From an uncultured Chromatiaceae bacterium (GTDB lineage: Bacteria > Pseudomonadota > Gammaproteobacteria > Tenderiales > Tenderiaceae), in NCBI GenBank assembly GCA_947259785.1, contig CAMYNQ010000009.1:1-44162 (forward strand): a stretch of 44,162 nt of DNA, given 5' to 3'. The translations under genes and the position numbers were made by a program. Under the pieces are notes generated by a model. That model ran no database searches. It was not told the origin of the DNA and was given only the letters and a program-made list of their open reading frames with translations. Every line of letters starts with the position of its first letter. Positions within the stretch are counted from its first letter, which is position 1. Of this stretch, positions 1,979-9,095 are shown piece by piece.

Positions 1979-4291
1979 TCAATTGATCAACTGCTTGGCC
2001 AAAGCCACTTCAATCGAATCACCATCCTGGTTCAATACATCCAAACCCGTATCCGGCATATCTCCCGAAGTAGACTGACTGACGGATATTTTCTTTGCCA
2101 TCAGCGACAGGCACGCCATTTGTGCCGAGCCGCTGTAGCCGAGAAAGTAGACATCCACAGCCTCTTTTTGGCCAATGCGCCATGAGCGTCGGGCTGCTTG
2201 TTGCAACGTATACACGTTATAGCCCGATTGCATAAACACGATGGTCGGAAAGTCCAACAGATCAAGACCTGTTTTAACCAACTCGGGATTGGTGATGATG
2301 ACATCCACCCCGCGTTCGACTTGGTCGCAGATCCAATCTTCCCGTTTGCATGTGTCTACACTCGCTCGTAGTACCGCAGCTTTGAAGCCTTCAGCCTCCA
2401 ACAGATTTTTCAATCTGGCGGTGGTATCACGCTTGCCAGTATAAGTCGTATAGACCAATACACGGCGGCCACGGCTTTTTTCAGCCTTACATAGTTGAAT
2501 AAGCTCCGCCTCTTTGGGAGACGGTTCATCGCCTATGATGGTGGGTATGAATGCCAACAACTGACGACTGCGCGGATGCTTCACCACTTCCTCGCGGAAG
2601 CAGGTATCCGGCCACGCCAACAGGCAGTTCAGTACTACACCCAACAGACTGTTATCACCGCTGCGTAACGCTTTTTTCAACGCATCGGTTAAGGTTGCTT
2701 CCAGTGCCATGTAGCGTTCGGCCTGTTCCGGTTCCATCTCGACTTCCGTGAAGTGCTCGTTGTAAGGCGGTAACACGTTGTCACCGATATCCTTGAGTTT
2801 CAGGAAAGCCGTAAAGGGTAGAACATACCTGGCTACACCCAATGGGCCAAAGCCCGGTGCTTTCTGGGTTCTCACTGTAATACTCTTACCGCGAGCAGTA
2901 CGGTGGTTCTTGGCGTCGGTCTCCTTATAAATATCTTTCAGGATTCCGTGTTGGCGCATAAACGCCATTGCTGCTGAACCCAGGCTGCCGCTATTGAGGT
3001 TGTAACGAAAACCATCTTCAATCATTCGTCGTGGCATGATTCGCCACAACAGAAAGAAGAGGTCGTCCGCATAGCCGCCCATGAGCGTTCCGGTCAGGAG
3101 TAACACTTTGCGTACTTTATTGGCCAACACACCCATGGCCTGGCCTTGGGCAGAGTTGTCGTTTTTGTACTCGTGACCTTCATCGACGATTAGTAGATCG
3201 AAGTAGCCATCGGGCAGGTAACGCTTGATGAACTCGGTGGGCTGATAACCGCCTTGCCCAAACGAGATTTCAAGCGATGCCATAGCCCGTTCCATGCGAG
3301 TGGCTTGCCTGTCGGTAAAGACTAGCTCTCCCTCATCATCCATCAGATTGATGAACTCATAGAGATTGTCTTCCAGCATCCCAGAGAGTAACTCTTCTCC
3401 GAAACTCCCGATCAGACGATCCGCTGTCTTCTTACCAATAGTCGGTAATTGACACATCGTATTAACTAGCAGCTCCCGACGGGACTTCTGCTTGTTACCG
3501 GGCCGGATCAACGTCCACAGTGGTTCGCTACAACATTCGCACCACTGCTGACGCACCGAACCATGGCCAAACAGCAAGGGCGTTAGTGAATTGCCTTCGC
3601 TGTCTTTGACGATGGTACCGCACCGGGGGCAACTGACCAGCTCCTCGGTTTCGACGATGGTGGCGGAACGCTCGTTACCGGATTCGATAGGTATACGGGT
3701 GTGCACCTTACGAACGGCAAAGGCGGGTTTCCAGTGGGAACCCATGCGCATCCGCACCCGACCGAGTATGAAGAACTCCGGTGAATCGGACTCCTTGCAC
3801 CTAAGTGCTGCTCTGAGTTGGAGCAGCTTGCACAGGGTGTCCGGGCCGTTGAGTACCCAGACTCGGGCATTGGGAACCGTCTCCAGGATCTCCCGCCGCC
3901 ACTTATAGACCAAATGGGGTGGTGAAATGACCAAAGAACGTTGGTAGCCCTCCGCATACATGACTGCCGCTGTAGCGATAGCCATCATGGTTTTGCCGGT
4001 ACCCATCTCAGCGTTGATGATGGCGGCTTTTTCCGCCTCATCGACCAGCAAACGGGTCACGGCTTGGACAACATCGCGTTGGGCATCGAACGGATCTCGC
4101 TTGAGACCATCCATGACCAGCTCCCGATGGGTATTGGGGATGCCGTCGTAGATCGGCGGGTTTTGATGTGAGACCGCCGTTAACAGATCGTCACCAAACT
4201 CGGTAACGAACTGGGAAAGCGGGATGACACTGGGATTTTCTAGCTCCGCATCGGTTTCATCGATTTGGATTGCTTCTGCAACTGCATTCAT
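1979..4291 (-). CDS. SNF2/DEAD-like helicase of ICE cargo type
   Basis: A 770-aa superfamily 2 helicase. Visible motifs are Walker A EMGTGKT (about residues 96-101), a DEGH Walker B box (about 369), LLLTGTLMGG as motif III, and the C-terminal helicase motif QAARRSWRIGQ (about 702) typical of SNF2 proteins. Two CxxC-type pairs (CPRCG about 222, CECC about 252) suggest a zinc-binding insertion between the ATPase motifs. The frame is open 15 codons further, but AAGGAGA lies 9-10 nt before the ATG at 4291, so that start is chosen. It is the last gene of its minus-strand unit, preceded by an attenuator-like leader. The DNA substrate is unknown; helicases of this sort accompany the DUF6094-type methylase in ICE backbones. 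Confidence 0.9.
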   Translation of the reverse strand: MNAVAEAIQIDETDAELENPSVIPLSQFVTEFGDDLLTAVSHQNPPIYDGIPNTHRELVMDGLKRDPFDAQRDVVQAVTRLLVDEAEKAAIINAEMGTGKTMMAIATAAVMYAEGYQRSLVISPPHLVYKWRREILETVPNARVWVLNGPDTLCKLLQLRAALRCKESDSPEFFILGRVRMRMGSHWKPAFAVRKVHTRIPIESGNERSATIVETEELVSCPRCGTIVKDSEGNSLTPLLFGHGSVRQQWCECCSEPLWTLIRPGNKQKSRRELLVNTMCQLPTIGKKTADRLIGSFGEELLSGMLEDNLYEFINLMDDEGELVFTDRQATRMERAMASLEISFGQGGYQPTEFIKRYLPDGYFDLLIVDEGHEYKNDNSAQGQAMGVLANKVRKVLLLTGTLMGGYADDLFFLLWRIMPRRMIEDGFRYNLNSGSLGSAAMAFMRQHGILKDIYKETDAKNHRTARGKSITVRTQKAPGFGPLGVARYVLPFTAFLKLKDIGDNVLPPYNEHFTEVEMEPEQAERYMALEATLTDALKKALRSGDNSLLGVVLNCLLAWPDTCFREEVVKHPRSRQLLAFIPTIIGDEPSPKEAELIQLCKAEKSRGRRVLVYTTYTGKRDTTARLKNLLEAEGFKAAVLRASVDTCKREDWICDQVERGVDVIITNPELVKTGLDLLDFPTIVFMQSGYNVYTLQQAARRSWRIGQKEAVDVYFLGYSGSAQMACLSLMAKKISVSQSTSGDMPDTGLDVLNQDGDSIEVALAKQLIN

Positions 4292-4311
4292 GACTGCCGT
4301 CTCCTTTGATT

Positions 4312-4362
4312 GAAAAAAAGAAAAGGGCAGTCCCACCAGGGGGAAACTGCCCCTGTAGTGGG
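4312..4362 (-). promoter_or_regulatory. leader hairpin U1 with terminator-like alternative fold
   Basis: In the transcript direction, CCCAC/GTGGG enclosing CAGGGG/CCCCTG can form a first hairpin. The competing GGGCAGT (4352-4346) with ACTGCCC (4331-4325) is followed by a U-rich run at 4324-4312. The two folds share bases, which is the geometry of a transcription attenuator. It ends about 20 nt before the helicase start and is the only one of the six leaders with a U tract. Confidence 0.5.
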
Positions 4363-4395
4363 TTGAAGTGATGTGCTCTATTAGCGCACGGTTAT

Positions 4396-4743
4396 TTAAA
4401 GCGTTTGCTCTCTTACATGTTTGCCGTTTTCAAAACGGTGGCTGACACACTTGTTTCCAACATTTCTCACGCCATCCATGATGACTTCGCTGGTCATTTG
4501 CTCGGGAACATTGATACGCTGGTGCGCCAGTTCGAACAGATAGCCCTCGATATCTTTTGGATGCGTAATATGTTGCTCCAGATTGTTGAAAAGGAAGTGC
4601 TCCTCTTCATCCTCTGTGTCTCCCTCTGGCGGAGAGTTGATTTTGGTAATGGTCATGAAATAGCCCTGTAGCGGGCGATCCCATCCCATGGTGACCACAA
4701 TCTCATCGCTGCCGTGTCGGGTAGTGAAGGTATGTACTGACAT
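4396..4743 (-). CDS. hypothetical ICE-associated protein, 115 aa
   Basis: A small acidic, soluble protein with no signal peptide and no family I can name. It has a strongly acidic central stretch (EGDTEDEEEH) and a conserved-looking N-terminus with beta character. The ATG at 4743 has AAGGAGA upstream and a hairpin leader before it. It lies between the methylase and helicase genes of the same minus-strand unit, so a role in the same element is likely, but no function can be assigned. Confidence 0.75.
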   Translation of the reverse strand: MSVHTFTTRHGSDEIVVTMGWDRPLQGYFMTITKINSPPEGDTEDEEEHFLFNNLEQHITHPKDIEGYLFELAHQRINVPEQMTSEVIMDGVRNVGNKCVSHRFENGKHVREQTL

Positions 4744-4768
4744 CTGATTCTCCTTGGTAAATGGTAAT

Positions 4769-4817
4769 GGGAGAAACAGGTGCTCCCAGGCGGGAGAGCT
4801 GTTCTCCCGCAGGGGTG
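4769..4817 (-). promoter_or_regulatory. leader hairpin U2
   Basis: Perfect 8-bp stem GCGGGAGA/TCTCCCGC (4790-4797 with 4803-4810). An alternative pairing joins GGGAGAAACAG (4769-4779) to CTGTTCTCCC (4799-4808). It lies 25 nt before the start at 4743 and belongs to the six-member family in this block. Confidence 0.55.
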
Positions 4818-4827
4818 AGTGAAGTAA

Positions 4828-5940
4828 CTACCTGATCTCAACCACGCGTGCATAGTCAGGGCCAGGGGTGAAGTCGATAGCGCGTATGACGGGCACAAAG
4901 CGGTCGGTCAGTACCGTGGTGGAGGTGAGGCGGTTATCCTCGTCTATCTCCTGGGTCACTGATCTGACTTTCTCTTTGTGTGTACCGCCTTTGATTAGAA
5001 ACTGCTGCCCACTCTGAGAGCGAACCACGCCAGAGACTTGCCCGGCAGCTAAGGCCATGGCGAGATGCCAGTTGGACATGGCTCGTAACGGTCGGCGCGA
5101 TGTTTCCAACGCCAGCGAGCGGAATTTAAGATCAAACTGATCCCATAAACAGGGGTTGCGTTGGATCTCATCCGCCAGCTGATTGCTGTCGAGTTTTACG
5201 TAGTTGAATTTGACATCGTTGCCCAGTGAGGCGGGTACGACATAGGGTTCCGCTGACCAGCTTTCCGGCAGTGTCTCCGGCTCCAATTCACCGTTGACCA
5301 TCGCCAGTAGCCGCTCTTTAGCGCCCGAGTTGTCATGCCTTGCCTCTTTGGTACGACGACGCACACCAAACAGCACGAGCTGTTTGAATTGTTGCTCTGG
5401 TGCCTTGAATACCTCGATGCGGTGAAAGTGGTTACTGATCCAACCCACCAACTCCTTATCCAGGGTATAGCGGGGGATAATCAGCACCATTACACCGTTG
5501 AACTGCAACGAAGACACTGTGAGGTTGTAGAACAGCTTTTCCAACCGCTTGCGACCCTTGCCGCCGAATCGATCACCGGTACTGCCTTTGTCAGACACCA
5601 GATCACCATAAGGCGGATTGAGCCACAGCAGACCAAACTGCCGTTGGCCGAGCACACAGTCCTGCATATCGCCATGAATACAGCGATCCAGAATCTGCTT
5701 GGCGTGCCAGGCACGTTCGCGGTCGTATTCCACACCGAAGGCCTCGGTTTGCTCTGCTCCCAAGTGGTGTTTGCATTCGGCCAGGGCCGTGCCTTCACCC
5801 GCACAGGGATCGAGAATACGAAGCTGCCCAGCCTTGGGTGGTGTCAGTGCAGACAGCACCCGAGACAGGGTGTCGGCATCGGTAGGGAAGTAGCCGTTCT
5901 TAATAAAATTACGCGCTAGGCGCTGAAACATTAAAGCCAT
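4828..5940 (-). CDS. DUF6094-type class I SAM-dependent (N6-adenine-like) DNA methylase
   Basis: A 370-aa Rossmann-fold methyltransferase. The SAM loop DPCAGEGTA lies at about residues 43-51, and LNPPYG (about 108) is the NPPY motif IV of amino-methyltransferases acting on adenine or cytosine in DNA. The C-terminal half has no motif I recognise. Proteins of this type are standard in PFGI-1/ICE-like islands. No restriction subunit is adjacent, so it would be a solitary methylase, probably for modification or antirestriction. The ATG at 5940 has TTAAGGAGAT upstream. It shares a minus-strand unit with the genes on both sides. Confidence 0.82.
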   Translation of the reverse strand: MALMFQRLARNFIKNGYFPTDADTLSRVLSALTPPKAGQLRILDPCAGEGTALAECKHHLGAEQTEAFGVEYDRERAWHAKQILDRCIHGDMQDCVLGQRQFGLLWLNPPYGDLVSDKGSTGDRFGGKGRKRLEKLFYNLTVSSLQFNGVMVLIIPRYTLDKELVGWISNHFHRIEVFKAPEQQFKQLVLFGVRRRTKEARHDNSGAKERLLAMVNGELEPETLPESWSAEPYVVPASLGNDVKFNYVKLDSNQLADEIQRNPCLWDQFDLKFRSLALETSRRPLRAMSNWHLAMALAAGQVSGVVRSQSGQQFLIKGGTHKEKVRSVTQEIDEDNRLTSTTVLTDRFVPVIRAIDFTPGPDYARVVEIR

Positions 5941-5968
5941 GGTGTATCTCCTTAAAGTGAAAGAATCA

Positions 5969-6016
5969 CCGGGGGAGACACCGCCCCGAGTGGGGAGAGG
6001 TTCTCCCCGGTAGGGT
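5969..6016 (-). promoter_or_regulatory. leader hairpin U3
   Basis: GGGGAGA (5992-5998) pairs with TCTCCCC (6002-6008) as a tight stem. CCGGGGGAGACACC (5969-5982) can instead pair with GGTTCTCCCCGG (5999-6010). It lies 28 nt before the methylase start and ends in the family signature CCCCGGTAGGGTT on the plus strand. Confidence 0.55.
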
Positions 6017-6024
6017 TTTACGAT

Positions 6025-6519
6025 TTAAGCGGCAATCACATCGCCCAACATGCGACGGGGCACGCGATAGCGCAGCCCAGCATAAACACCCAATAAGGGC
6101 TTGGTTGATGTAATCACCACCCAAGGGATGGACGCATTGAGCAGGCCGACCTTCTGACCAATCTGCACTTTGCGGTTACGGCGTTGATGATAAGCCCGGA
6201 CTTCCTCCCGCCACTTTTCATTGGCGACGGGTGCCATATCCAGGTACTTGAGCGGGCAGGAGAACTGATAAGGAAACATGCTCTCAGTCATGTCCTTATA
6301 GCCCCAACCACAGTCTTTAGAACTACGCAGCAGGTAACAGACAATAAAACGCTCTTGCCGGTTATCCTGTTTGTAGGTGATTTGATTCACGGCCCACAGC
6401 ACATTGCCGCGAACACAGTGAGCAATCGTCTCCCAACGACGTTTGTCGTTTTCCTCTTTAGAGACCAATTTACGGACGATATCGGCCTTGGAAGCGCCTT
6501 GAGTAAATAACCAACCCAT
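6025..6519 (-). CDS. ICE-associated protein, DUF6927-like, 164 aa
   Basis: A soluble basic protein of unknown function. It starts MGWLFTQGASKADIV and keeps several aromatic residues and Cys (e.g. CYLLRSSKDCGWGYKDM). It resembles the small DUF6927-type proteins seen beside DUF6094 methylases in proteobacterial ICEs; the family name is from memory, not a search. The frame is open for 20 more codons, but CGAGGAGAAA lies just before the ATG at 6519, so that start is used. It is the first gene of the unit that ends with the helicase. Confidence 0.75.
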   Translation of the reverse strand: MGWLFTQGASKADIVRKLVSKEENDKRRWETIAHCVRGNVLWAVNQITYKQDNRQERFIVCYLLRSSKDCGWGYKDMTESMFPYQFSCPLKYLDMAPVANEKWREEVRAYHQRRNRKVQIGQKVGLLNASIPWVVITSTKPLLGVYAGLRYRVPRRMLGDVIAA

Positions 6520-6552
6520 GGTGTTTCTCCTCGTTTTTAAAAGTGAATAAAC

Positions 6553-6596
6553 GCGAGGAACAATGACCCTGAAGGGCATGAATTACCCCGCAGGTG
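6553..6596 (-). promoter_or_regulatory. leader hairpin U4 (degenerate copy)
   Basis: Weakest member of the leader family. It has an inner CCCT/AGGG hairpin plus an outer GCGAGGAACAAT that can pair imperfectly with ATTACCCCGC. It lies 33 nt before the start at 6519 and directly downstream, in the transcript sense, of the two-hairpin element at 6640-6710. Confidence 0.45.
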
Positions 6597-6639
6597 GATG
6601 GATGAGTAGAATAAGAACCGACGACCTGAAGATCGTTGC

Positions 6640-6710
6640 GCCTGTTACACGGTTCGAAGAGACGCTGGGGCGCTGGCAGAGCCAGCAACGGTTCCACTGA
6701 CAAACAGTGG
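6640..6710 (-). promoter_or_regulatory. two-hairpin leader/promoter element, copy 1
   Basis: Two adjacent perfect stems: GCTGGC-AGA-GCCAGC (6672-6686) and CCACTG-ACAAA-CAGTGG (6694-6710), plus conserved flanks CACGGTTC and GGGGCGCT. The second copy at 8882-8944 keeps the layout but changes stem bases on both sides (GTTGGC/GCCAAC), so pairing is preserved. It lies between the divergent SRAP gene and the 6519 gene. Confidence 0.55.
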
Positions 6711-6796
6711 CACGGTAAAGCCTGACAGTAACCAGTGGCTGATGGTCAGGGCAATGGGAAAAGATTTTTGCTAGGAAAAATTAAGGGGAGGGTGCA

Positions 6797-7486
6797 ATGT
6801 GTGGCCGCTATAACGTGATCGATGATCCCGCCGTTCATGAGCTATGCCGCCAGGTGGGTATCGATACCAGCAACTGGCAGGTCCGCTTTAACGATGACAT
6901 CGTGCCTACTTCCGTTATCTCGATTATCCGAGAGGATGAGCAGCAACGGCGTATTGATGATGCGATCTGGTGGTTGTTGCTGGAATGTACCGATACCGGC
7001 TGGAAACCCAATAGCCGTTATGCCACTTTCAATACCCGTTACGACAAGCTGAATCGTCCAAGATCGGTGGGGTACACGCCGTTTCGGCAGTCGCGCTGTA
7101 TCATTCCAGCTTCGGGGTTTGTCGAAGGCTTGGAAGGTACGAAGAGTTATTACTTGTTAGAGGCAGCTAATGAGGCCATCGCCTTTGGCGGCCTGTATCG
7201 TACCTGGGTGCATGATGCCACGGGGGAGATGGTGCATTCTGCTTCAATCATCACGCTACCGCCACATCCCAAATTCAAGGGTATCCACGAAAAGGCTTTT
7301 CCCATGATGCTGGATGCCAGTAATCAGGAAATGATAGATCAATGGCTGTCGCCCCATATGCGGGATGTTAGTGGTTTTGAGGATCTGCTGGAACCAAACT
7401 TGGTTACGCCGCTAAGGGCAACGCCCATCGACCGGCCCTCGAAAAAGAACCCAACCGGGGAAGCATTCGCTATCGCAGCAGATTAA
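6797..7486 (+). CDS. SRAP-domain protein (YedK/HMCES-like abasic-site protein)
   Basis: A 229-aa SOS response-associated peptidase family protein. It begins Met-Cys, giving the catalytic Cys2 that forms a covalent link with abasic sites in single-stranded DNA. It keeps the Asn of FNTRYDK (about residue 78), a Glu in SGFVEG (about 109) and the His of HEKAFPMML (about 164), close to the usual HxRMPxIL. The length is normal for the family. It is the only plus-strand gene of the ICE-like block and the only one without the hairpin leader; GGGGAGG lies just before the start. A role in protecting single-stranded element DNA is plausible but inferred. Confidence 0.92.
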   Translation: MCGRYNVIDDPAVHELCRQVGIDTSNWQVRFNDDIVPTSVISIIREDEQQRRIDDAIWWLLLECTDTGWKPNSRYATFNTRYDKLNRPRSVGYTPFRQSRCIIPASGFVEGLEGTKSYYLLEAANEAIAFGGLYRTWVHDATGEMVHSASIITLPPHPKFKGIHEKAFPMMLDASNQEMIDQWLSPHMRDVSGFEDLLEPNLVTPLRATPIDRPSKKNPTGEAFAIAAD

Positions 7487-7519
7487 GTGAAAAGCCCCCA
7501 AGAATGAGGGCTATCACGG

Positions 7520-8143
7520 TTAATTAAGACAAAGCACACCGTCTCGAATCAAGGTGCTGATCTCATCCTCAACTTCCTCGCTCAGGCTTAGATCAATCAA
7601 GGCACCGTTAACACCGATGCCGTTGAAGTCTTTGATCCATTCCCGCTCGTAGAAGCGTTTGATGATGGTTTCAGCCCAGTGATCCAGCAGTGGCAAATGG
7701 CAGATTGCCTTGGTTAAGTGCCAGATGCGTGACTGAGATACCGTACTGACCGACGCTGTATCCACCATACGAGAGATGGCAATGGTGCGGCGGTTAGCTA
7801 GATCGGGATCAGTCACCAGTCGATCAAACACCCACAAATGCGCCATGTCGCCGCCAAAGACATTGCTGGCAGGCATACGGCCCGAGTGGTGGTTTAGCCG
7901 TTTGGATTCACCAATCTGTACCAGTTTACGCAGTGGCTCACCGCTGCCGCGTTTGCCGGTGGTTAGAAAAAAGCTATTGATGCCACCTTCCTCATTGGCG
8001 AGGGAAATACCGGCCAAAAACTCTTGAATGGCGGTATCCCGGCCCCAAAGGGAAAGGAATAACAGCTTGTCATACGCATCCACCAGCGCCGCATCGGCAT
8101 AGAGGTCGGGGATAGCGTCGATTTGCATGAGCGCTTGGTTCAT
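7520..8143 (-). CDS. hypothetical ICE-associated protein, 207 aa
   Basis: A soluble protein I cannot assign. The N-terminal region is acidic and helical (IDAIPDLYADAALVDAYDKL), and the remainder shows mixed alpha/beta character without a catalytic motif I recognise. The frame is open 34 codons further, but TAAGGAGAC lies before the ATG at 8143 and the extension overlaps the leader hairpin and the upstream gene, so 8143 is used. It follows the DUF3275 gene by about 77 nt and is convergent with the SRAP gene. Confidence 0.75.
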   Translation of the reverse strand: MNQALMQIDAIPDLYADAALVDAYDKLLFLSLWGRDTAIQEFLAGISLANEEGGINSFFLTTGKRGSGEPLRKLVQIGESKRLNHHSGRMPASNVFGGDMAHLWVFDRLVTDPDLANRRTIAISRMVDTASVSTVSQSRIWHLTKAICHLPLLDHWAETIIKRFYEREWIKDFNGIGVNGALIDLSLSEEVEDEISTLIRDGVLCLN

Positions 8144-8160
8144 ATAAGTCTCCTTATAAA

Positions 8161-8204
8161 GCGGGAGACAGCGCCCGGCGGGGCGCATGTCCCCGGCTGG
8201 GTTG
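8161..8204 (-). promoter_or_regulatory. leader hairpin U5
   Basis: GGGG and CCCC pair around GCGCATGT, and GCGGGAGACA at one edge can pair with TGTCCCCGGC at the other. It ends in CCCCGGCTGGGTT on the plus strand, the family signature. It lies only 17 nt before the start at 8143, the closest spacing of the six. Confidence 0.55.
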
Positions 8205-8220
8205 ATTGAGAAGAAGTGTC

Positions 8221-8775
8221 TTAGTGAGTCGTTGCCTTGCTCCATATCTGCTCTCGCGGATCGAAGGTGTACCCCAGATCCTTGAGACGATTACGTTGCA
8301 GGCGGAACTTCAAGCGATCCACCGTAGGGTCCAGTTTGACCTGGGTGCCCAGTGGCCACAGCGTTCCAAACAGCGACTCATCACTCTCATCTTCTTCAGT
8401 GACGACCTCACTTTCCGGTTTTGCCTCGGCTGGTTGTTCGGATTTCTCCGCAGTCTTGGCTGGGGTAGGGTGGTCATCCGCAGGATCAGGCTCAGATGCA
8501 ACGACCGTATCCTCCGGTTTCAGATCATCCACACCATCGAGACTCAGGCTCTTGAGCGTGGCACGAACCTCCACCACAAAACGCCCACCGGCGAAGTAAG
8601 ACGAAGGGAATATCTGCGTGATATTGAAATTCCCCTCATAACGGCCCTCCTCATACTGCTCTAGCAGAGTATCCTTCACGGAAAACTCCCCCAAATCAGT
8701 AATCAGACGCCCGACATTAAACGGCCCGTTCGAGCCATTGATAGTGCGAATGGTTAAAACGCCATCGATATTCAT
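8221..8775 (-). CDS. DUF3275 family protein
   Basis: A 184-aa protein whose first 75 residues (TIRTINGSNGPFNVGRLITDLGEF, then VKDTLLEQYEEGRYEGNF and YFAGGRFVVEVRA) match the DUF3275 family of integrative elements. A central 50-residue acidic, Pro/Ala-rich linker follows, then a short basic C-terminal segment. The function is unknown; the fold of the first part looks like a small beta-rich binding domain. Start ATG at 8775 has GAGAGGTG upstream. It heads the second minus-strand unit. Confidence 0.85.
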   Translation of the reverse strand: MNIDGVLTIRTINGSNGPFNVGRLITDLGEFSVKDTLLEQYEEGRYEGNFNITQIFPSSYFAGGRFVVEVRATLKSLSLDGVDDLKPEDTVVASEPDPADDHPTPAKTAEKSEQPAEAKPESEVVTEEDESDESLFGTLWPLGTQVKLDPTVDRLKFRLQRNRLKDLGYTFDPREQIWSKATTH

Positions 8776-8810
8776 AAAACACCTCTCTTGGTTAGTTAGA
8801 AAAAATGCAG

Positions 8811-8850
8811 AGAGGTATCCCTTGCAGGGAAAACGCTCCCCGGCAGGGTT
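8811..8850 (-). promoter_or_regulatory. leader hairpin U6
   Basis: CCCTTGCAGGG (8819-8829) forms a small stem, and the element ends CCCCGGCAGGGTT on the plus strand. It lies 35 nt before the DUF3275 start and just downstream, in the transcript sense, of the two-hairpin element copy 2. Confidence 0.5.
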
Positions 8851-8881
8851 AGGAAAATGGAGTTGGATAATGAACCCCTAT

Positions 8882-8944
8882 TGCACGGTTCTGTGGGGCG
8901 CTAAGGGTGTTGGCGGGGCCAACAAGGGTCCACAAGTAATGTGG
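8882..8944 (-). promoter_or_regulatory. two-hairpin leader/promoter element, copy 2
   Basis: Stems GTTGGC-GGG-GCCAAC (8909-8923) and CCACA-AGTAA-TGTGG (8930-8944) with flanks CACGGTTC and GGGGCGCT, as in the copy at 6640-6710. A TTGACA box on the minus strand (8979-8974) lies about 30 nt upstream of the second stem, so the element would be at or near the 5' end of the transcript. Confidence 0.55.
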
Positions 8945-8950
8945 GGGTGT

Positions 8951-8979
8951 AACTATTGATAAGGTATCGAAGGTGTCAA
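8951..8979 (-). promoter_or_regulatory. possible sigma-70 promoter for the DUF3275 unit
   Basis: A perfect -35 box TTGACA (8979-8974) is followed after 17 nt by ATAGTT (8956-8951), a poor -10 match. The position directly upstream of the structured element supports it; the weak -10 argues for caution. Confidence 0.35.
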
Positions 8980-9095
8980 ATGTGCATCAAGAGTTAATTT
9001 TTACTAATTGAGGTGAATTAAATTAGAAAGTTAAAAAGCAGATAAAAATGCCTTTTCTAACAGTAGAACTTACTATTTTTGAGTGCAATGACTAA

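Follow-up and report, generated by a model that had tools for sequence, protein, structure and literature searches.

Evidence for a family of pseudoknotted leader RNAs heading gene segments of DUF3275-type ICEs

ICEs of the kind considered here spread adaptive and resistance genes, and the expression of their long arrays of core genes is poorly understood. Several described systems offer points of comparison for the elements that we analyzed in one such array. RNase III sites of the phage T7 type are long intercistronic hairpins whose processing gives the upstream mRNA a 3' hairpin and the downstream mRNA a new 5' end; an upstream hairpin in our loci, which we call P0, would act likewise. In contrast to the loci described here, T7-type sites have no conserved pseudoknotted leader behind them, and cleavage of P0 is putative. 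The put RNA of phage HK022 is about 70 nt long, forms two stem-loops, and is found at the start of each of the two early operons (PMC9378689), and Gram-positive plasmid conjugation operons contain terminators together with an RNA-containing antitermination system (PMC8955417). Our elements resemble the put sites (putL and putR) as cis RNAs of roughly 70 to 100 nt that begin with two stem-loops, lie close to a promoter, and are duplicated to head two transcription units, whereas put lacks a pseudoknot, occurs in one copy per operon, and is not accompanied by P0 or a 3' hairpin cassette. The EAR element and the conAn2 RNA, which we compared by description rather than by sequence, are likewise structured RNAs that start long operons, conjugation operons in the case of conAn2, but both belong to Gram-positive hosts and occur in one copy per operon.

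We analyzed a 44,162-nt stretch of DNA (the window) from an uncultured Chromatiaceae bacterium (contig CAMYNQ010000009.1). The recognized ICE genes in the window are only an array fragment at approximately 1979-9000, beside other genes, and no relaxase or transfer gene was recognized among the window proteins scanned. An initial annotation had proposed a duplicated two-hairpin element at the head of the two minus-strand units of this array. Both are real minus-strand elements located where the annotation put them, but it had caught only their 5' halves, as their full spans are 6613-6711 (element A) and 8870-8946 (element B). Element A is intact and full length, containing P1, P2, a P3/P4 pseudoknot, and P5, and scored 89.4 and 84.9 bits with the covariance models R1 and R2 described below. 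From its 5' end on the minus strand, it consists of the P1 hairpin CCACTG-TTTGT-CAGTGG (6694-6710), whose pairs covary in the family; the P2 hairpin GCTGGC-TCT-GCCAGC (6672-6686), with double changes at all six pairs across the family; the P3 5' arm GCGTC (6661-6665), which is outside the model and covaries; the P4 5' arm GAACCG (6650-6655); the P3 3' arm GGCGC (6638-6642), supported by a P3 pairing test; the P5 hairpin CGATC-TTCA-GGTCG (6622-6635); and the P4 3' arm CGGTTC (6615-6620), followed by a tail that is U-rich in composition. Both P4 and P5 are supported by covariation. The conserved core of A is a pseudoknot that was absent from the initial annotation, in which P3 crosses P4 and the P5 hairpin lies inside. 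A candidate weak promoter, TTGCCC-18-TACTGT (6725-6754, minus strand; score of 6.5, p of 0.23), has a -10 box ending 13 nt before the element. The linker between P1 and P2 of A (6689-6695, minus strand) reads AACCG where most relatives have ACCC; this sequence could provide a second partner for the P4 3' arm and make an alternative fold possible.

The similarity of A and B is beyond chance, since R1, which was built without B, recovered B at 42.5 bits (E of 3.9e-8) in 181 kb; R2 scored B at 47 bits. Element B retains, on the minus strand, the P1 hairpin CCACA-TTACT-TGTGG (8930-8944), the P2 hairpin GTTGGC-CCC-GCCAAC (8909-8923), the 5' arm of P3, and a truncated P4 at 8872-8891 (GAACC at 8887-8891 with GGTTC at 8872-8876), which the alignment and the P3 test indicate has lost its pseudoknot partner. 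Relative to L008-type sequence, a clean deletion of about 21 nt removed the P3 3' arm and P5. With only P1, P2, and a short P4 left, B may be a deletion variant whose function is partly or fully lost. A candidate σ70 promoter of B, found by promoter scoring, is TTGACA-18-TAGTTA or, alternatively, TTGACA-16-AATAGT (8950-8979, minus strand). A direct DNA search of the same genome returned no copy beyond A, just short chance matches.

Comparison of the two copies bore out the stem pairings that had been claimed for P1 (CCACTG/CAGTGG in A and CCACA/TGTGG in B) and the compensatory change in P2 (GCTGGC/GCCAGC in A versus GTTGGC/GCCAAC in B), in which a C-G pair became T-A by changes on both sides. 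The proposed shared word GGGGCGCT was out of register, abutting P2 in A and falling in the P3a region of B; the correct register aligns GAGACGCT of A with GGGGCGCT of B. Because of this shift, a shared-word pattern made from the annotated motifs had zero matches. Each element is followed by a hairpin-leader, as had been described, and by an SD sequence before the ATG of the first gene, at a distance of 93 nt for A and 94 nt for B. The first gene after A (6025-6579, minus strand) encodes a member of an MGW... family, with orthologues located behind an element in four further ICEs, and the first gene after B (8221-8775, minus strand) encodes a DUF3275 protein (PF11679; E of 6.4e-54). The B unit ends in a terminator-like hairpin, AGCCCTCATTCTTGGGGGCT followed by TTTCAC (7493-7512, minus strand). 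An SRAP-domain gene in the opposite orientation (6797-7486, plus strand) separates the two minus-strand units, which adjoin in close relatives, and it looks like a cargo insertion.

We gathered homologous DUF3275 loci and read their upstream regions, and close relatives were found to share the element. Loose descriptor scans gave many chance matches and were abandoned in favor of a covariance model. R1 was derived from A plus five homologues, with B left out, and represented P1, P2, P4, and P5 only; it gave 26 matches in the DUF3275 loci compared, among them B. The refined model, R2, identified 41 copies in the window and its relatives, all 41 of which are in the sense orientation, running in the same direction as the neighboring ICE genes. 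In the alignment of these copies, standard pairs occupied 94.2% of cells, and 25 of 28 pairs showed changes on both sides. In contrasts that were computed without a sequence tree and hence are not probabilities, the covariation score was 0.645, compared with an average of 0.225 for shuffles (0 of 500 equally high) and at most 0.131 for slid-structure controls, and in 78% of copies the arms of P3, which was never modeled, paired as a Watson-Crick helix of 5 bp or more, versus 30% when arms were swapped between loci. P3 takes at least nine different complementary 5-bp forms, including GCGCC/GGCGC, GCACC/GGTGC, GCCTC/GAGGC, GCAAC/GTTGC, GCACT/AGTGC, and TGTGC/GCACA. On the sense strand, G.U pairs exceeded A.C pairs by 28 to 11 outside P3 and by 15 to 1 in P2 and P4 together, counts to be read alongside the slight preference of the covariance-model search itself for G.U; this excess indicates that the sense strand folds, as expected of an RNA and not of an operator.

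The covariation of five helices, the covarying crossing helix P3 outside the model, the G.U excess, and the uniform sense orientation together indicate an RNA folded from the sense strand, which upholds the conserved structured RNA that the initial annotation had offered as one of two readings. Alignment of homologues, which the annotation had advised, revealed pairing kept despite sequence change, the reverse of sequence kept with pairing lost. No match to A, B, or the relatives scanned was found among the 4,227 families of Rfam 15, even at relaxed E values. Thus, A and B are almost certainly members of a new structured leader RNA family, a pseudoknotted one that is absent from Rfam 15. Members vary in detail, as P2 or the 5' arm of P3 is absent in a few copies (G094 and L007). 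Three copies of genome G031 (L052:518-636, 3842-3959, and 8950-9068) carry an extra hairpin between the P3 5' arm and P4 and retain P3 pairing (GTGCCC/GGGCAC).

The family is restricted to one branch of DUF3275-type (MPF-G-like) ICEs. R2 matched 12 of 369 genomes of the class, and 10 of these are among the 13 genomes with DUF3275. The copy in G294 lies between topoisomerase and DUF3577 genes, which is ICE core, and the 41-bit match in G272 has an ambiguous context and may be spurious. Across a wider phylum sample of 349 genomes, R2 matched the source genome of the window and none of the other 348. Eight DUF3275 plasmid loci, from Pseudomonas, Enterobacter, Shewanella, Aliivibrio, Comamonas, Paraburkholderia, and Nitrogeniibacter, contained no copy, which argues that the RNA is confined to one branch, and a DUF3275 scan of viral contigs gave no match. 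No RNA of this kind is described in the accessible portions of the literature on DUF3275/STY4534 or ICEclc. Individual ICEs carry multiple copies: G004 has six, which span 37 kb, and G135 has at least seven. In G135, seven copies within about 9 kb (L026:17179-19752 and L027:1182-6591) head nearly every gene segment from DUF3577 through an SNF2 helicase. A conserved RNA that heads many core gene segments, up to seven per ICE, suggests shared RNA-level control of ICE expression.

Copies recur at the starts of gene segments, usually with 70 to 165 nt between the end of the element and the start codon, and the genes behind them include DUF3577/STY4534, DUF3275, RadC, DUF6094, and SNF2 helicase genes. 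All promoter-like sites that we found are upstream of the element. Two upstream arrangements were apparent. In the first, a promoter-like TTGATn-18-TAnnnT sequence (TTGACA in B) ends 13 to 18 nt before promoter-proximal copies. In the second, a GC hairpin bearing a short pyrimidine tract is followed by the P0 hairpin of approximately 15 to 23 pairs and then by the copy (L025:5350-5414, L027:1100-1182, and L008:8540-8597 are examples of P0, among others). This pyrimidine tract is often part of the 5' arm of P0. The stability of P0 reaches z scores as low as -9, and its arm sequences are very diverse (CTTTCC/GGAAAG, CATTCC/GGAATG, TTTTTCC/GGAAAAA, and TTGATCG/CGATCAA). From the predicted fold, P0 is a possible RNase III site. 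Scored with a promoter matrix of approximate frequencies taken from general knowledge, 12 of 44 copies scored 8 or higher for a promoter, a separate set of 14 had a P0 with z at or below -2.8, and the other 18 had neither clearly. This split is a pattern rather than a p value given that copies within one ICE are related. At the place orthologous to A in a relative (L025:1313), a P0 is present; in the window, where the SRAP gene cuts A off from upstream transcription, A has a promoter-like sequence instead.

Both arrangements would leave the element at or near an mRNA 5' end, which would be produced by transcription initiation for A and B and by RNase III-type cleavage of P0 for the P0 copies. 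The element would then determine in cis how stable each ICE mRNA segment is and/or how well it is translated; a factor that recognizes the pseudoknot, the C-rich linkers, and the conserved loop of P1 is the probable mediator. We hold with evenly balanced confidence that the element works in this way as a 5'-end module of ICE mRNAs, and, more broadly, the family probably controls the mRNAs of the island. No clear candidate for a co-occurring trans-acting gene emerged from the incomplete regions compared. For ICEclc, Northern data have been read as compatible with cleavage of a longer transcript (PMC2892462), a comparison made by transcript data. Points against the 5'-end module are the weakness of the A promoter (p of 0.23), the 18 of 44 copies with neither a clear promoter nor P0, the few copies that lack P2 or the 5' arm of P3, and the intact gene behind B, which has lost the pseudoknot. 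More tentatively, the GC hairpin, P0, and element could form a reusable mRNA-end cassette in which the GC hairpin protects the 3' end of the message of one gene, RNase III cuts P0, and the element caps the new 5' end in a protective or regulatory role, while A, B, and other promoter-proximal copies cap primary transcripts. If so, one polycistronic ICE transcript would be turned into several separately controlled mRNAs. The RNA offers a concrete handle on ICE expression through its structure, transcript ends, and terminator read-through.

The strongest rival, which we nevertheless consider rather unlikely, is processive antitermination of the put/EAR/conAn2 kind, in which the nascent RNA would bind the elongating RNA polymerase so that terminators in long ICE operons are read through. 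The elements in both window units lie just downstream of promoters, like putL, and the pair of stem-loops that put-type RNAs form close behind a promoter was found for the promoter-proximal copies, with the weak A promoter noted above. Put-type RNAs have two imperfect stems without a crossing helix, whereas the core of this family is the P3/P4 pseudoknot, to which put has nothing comparable. GC hairpins with T-containing tails, located 50 to 75 nt before several internal copies, would suit this reading, but many of these tails are just CTTTCC or CATTCC, which makes many of the hairpins poor terminators, and the copies sit after the hairpin and not before it. Antitermination also leaves P0 unexplained, and a processive system should not require as many as the seven copies that one ICE carries within 9 kb. 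One copy per segment fits a per-mRNA function, as in the 5'-end module, better than a processive change in RNA polymerase.

We regard as improbable an attenuator or riboswitch-like leader, in which P4/P5 and the pyrimidine-rich tail would terminate or pause transcription conditionally, under the control of a ligand or protein that stabilizes the pseudoknot. Pseudoknots are frequent in such switches, P5 of A received a weak terminator-like call, and U/C-rich positions do follow P4 (among 29 non-redundant copies, T occurs at +2 in 24 and at +5 in 23). This U tract is short and interrupted, however, and the presence of several copies in tandem units of one ICE, with no metabolic gene involved, speaks against such a switch.

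Two readings in terms of DNA rather than RNA have very little probability. An Frpo-type single-stranded-DNA promoter, folded on the strand transferred in conjugation, would account for duplicated structured elements heading units of a conjugative element, but such promoters fold on the template strand and predict more A.C than G.U on the sense strand; the balance found is the opposite, on which ground we rejected this reading, and the copies extend over 37 kb in G004 with ordinary promoter-like sites outside the fold. Equally remote is a double-stranded DNA operator or repeated protein-binding site tied to a promoter, the second reading of the initial annotation, which the inverted repeats near promoter-like sequence and the conserved linkers would suit but which is contradicted by covariation, as arm sequences vary freely and widely with pairing retained, crossing helix included, and many copies have no promoter-like sequence.

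The hairpin-leaders between elements and genes belong to a second, separate family (CCCNGCCGGGGAG...), with members at 8776-8870 and 6515-6600 of the window and ahead of most of the ICE genes in L014-L022. This hairpin-leader family is also present in ICEs without the pseudoknotted element.
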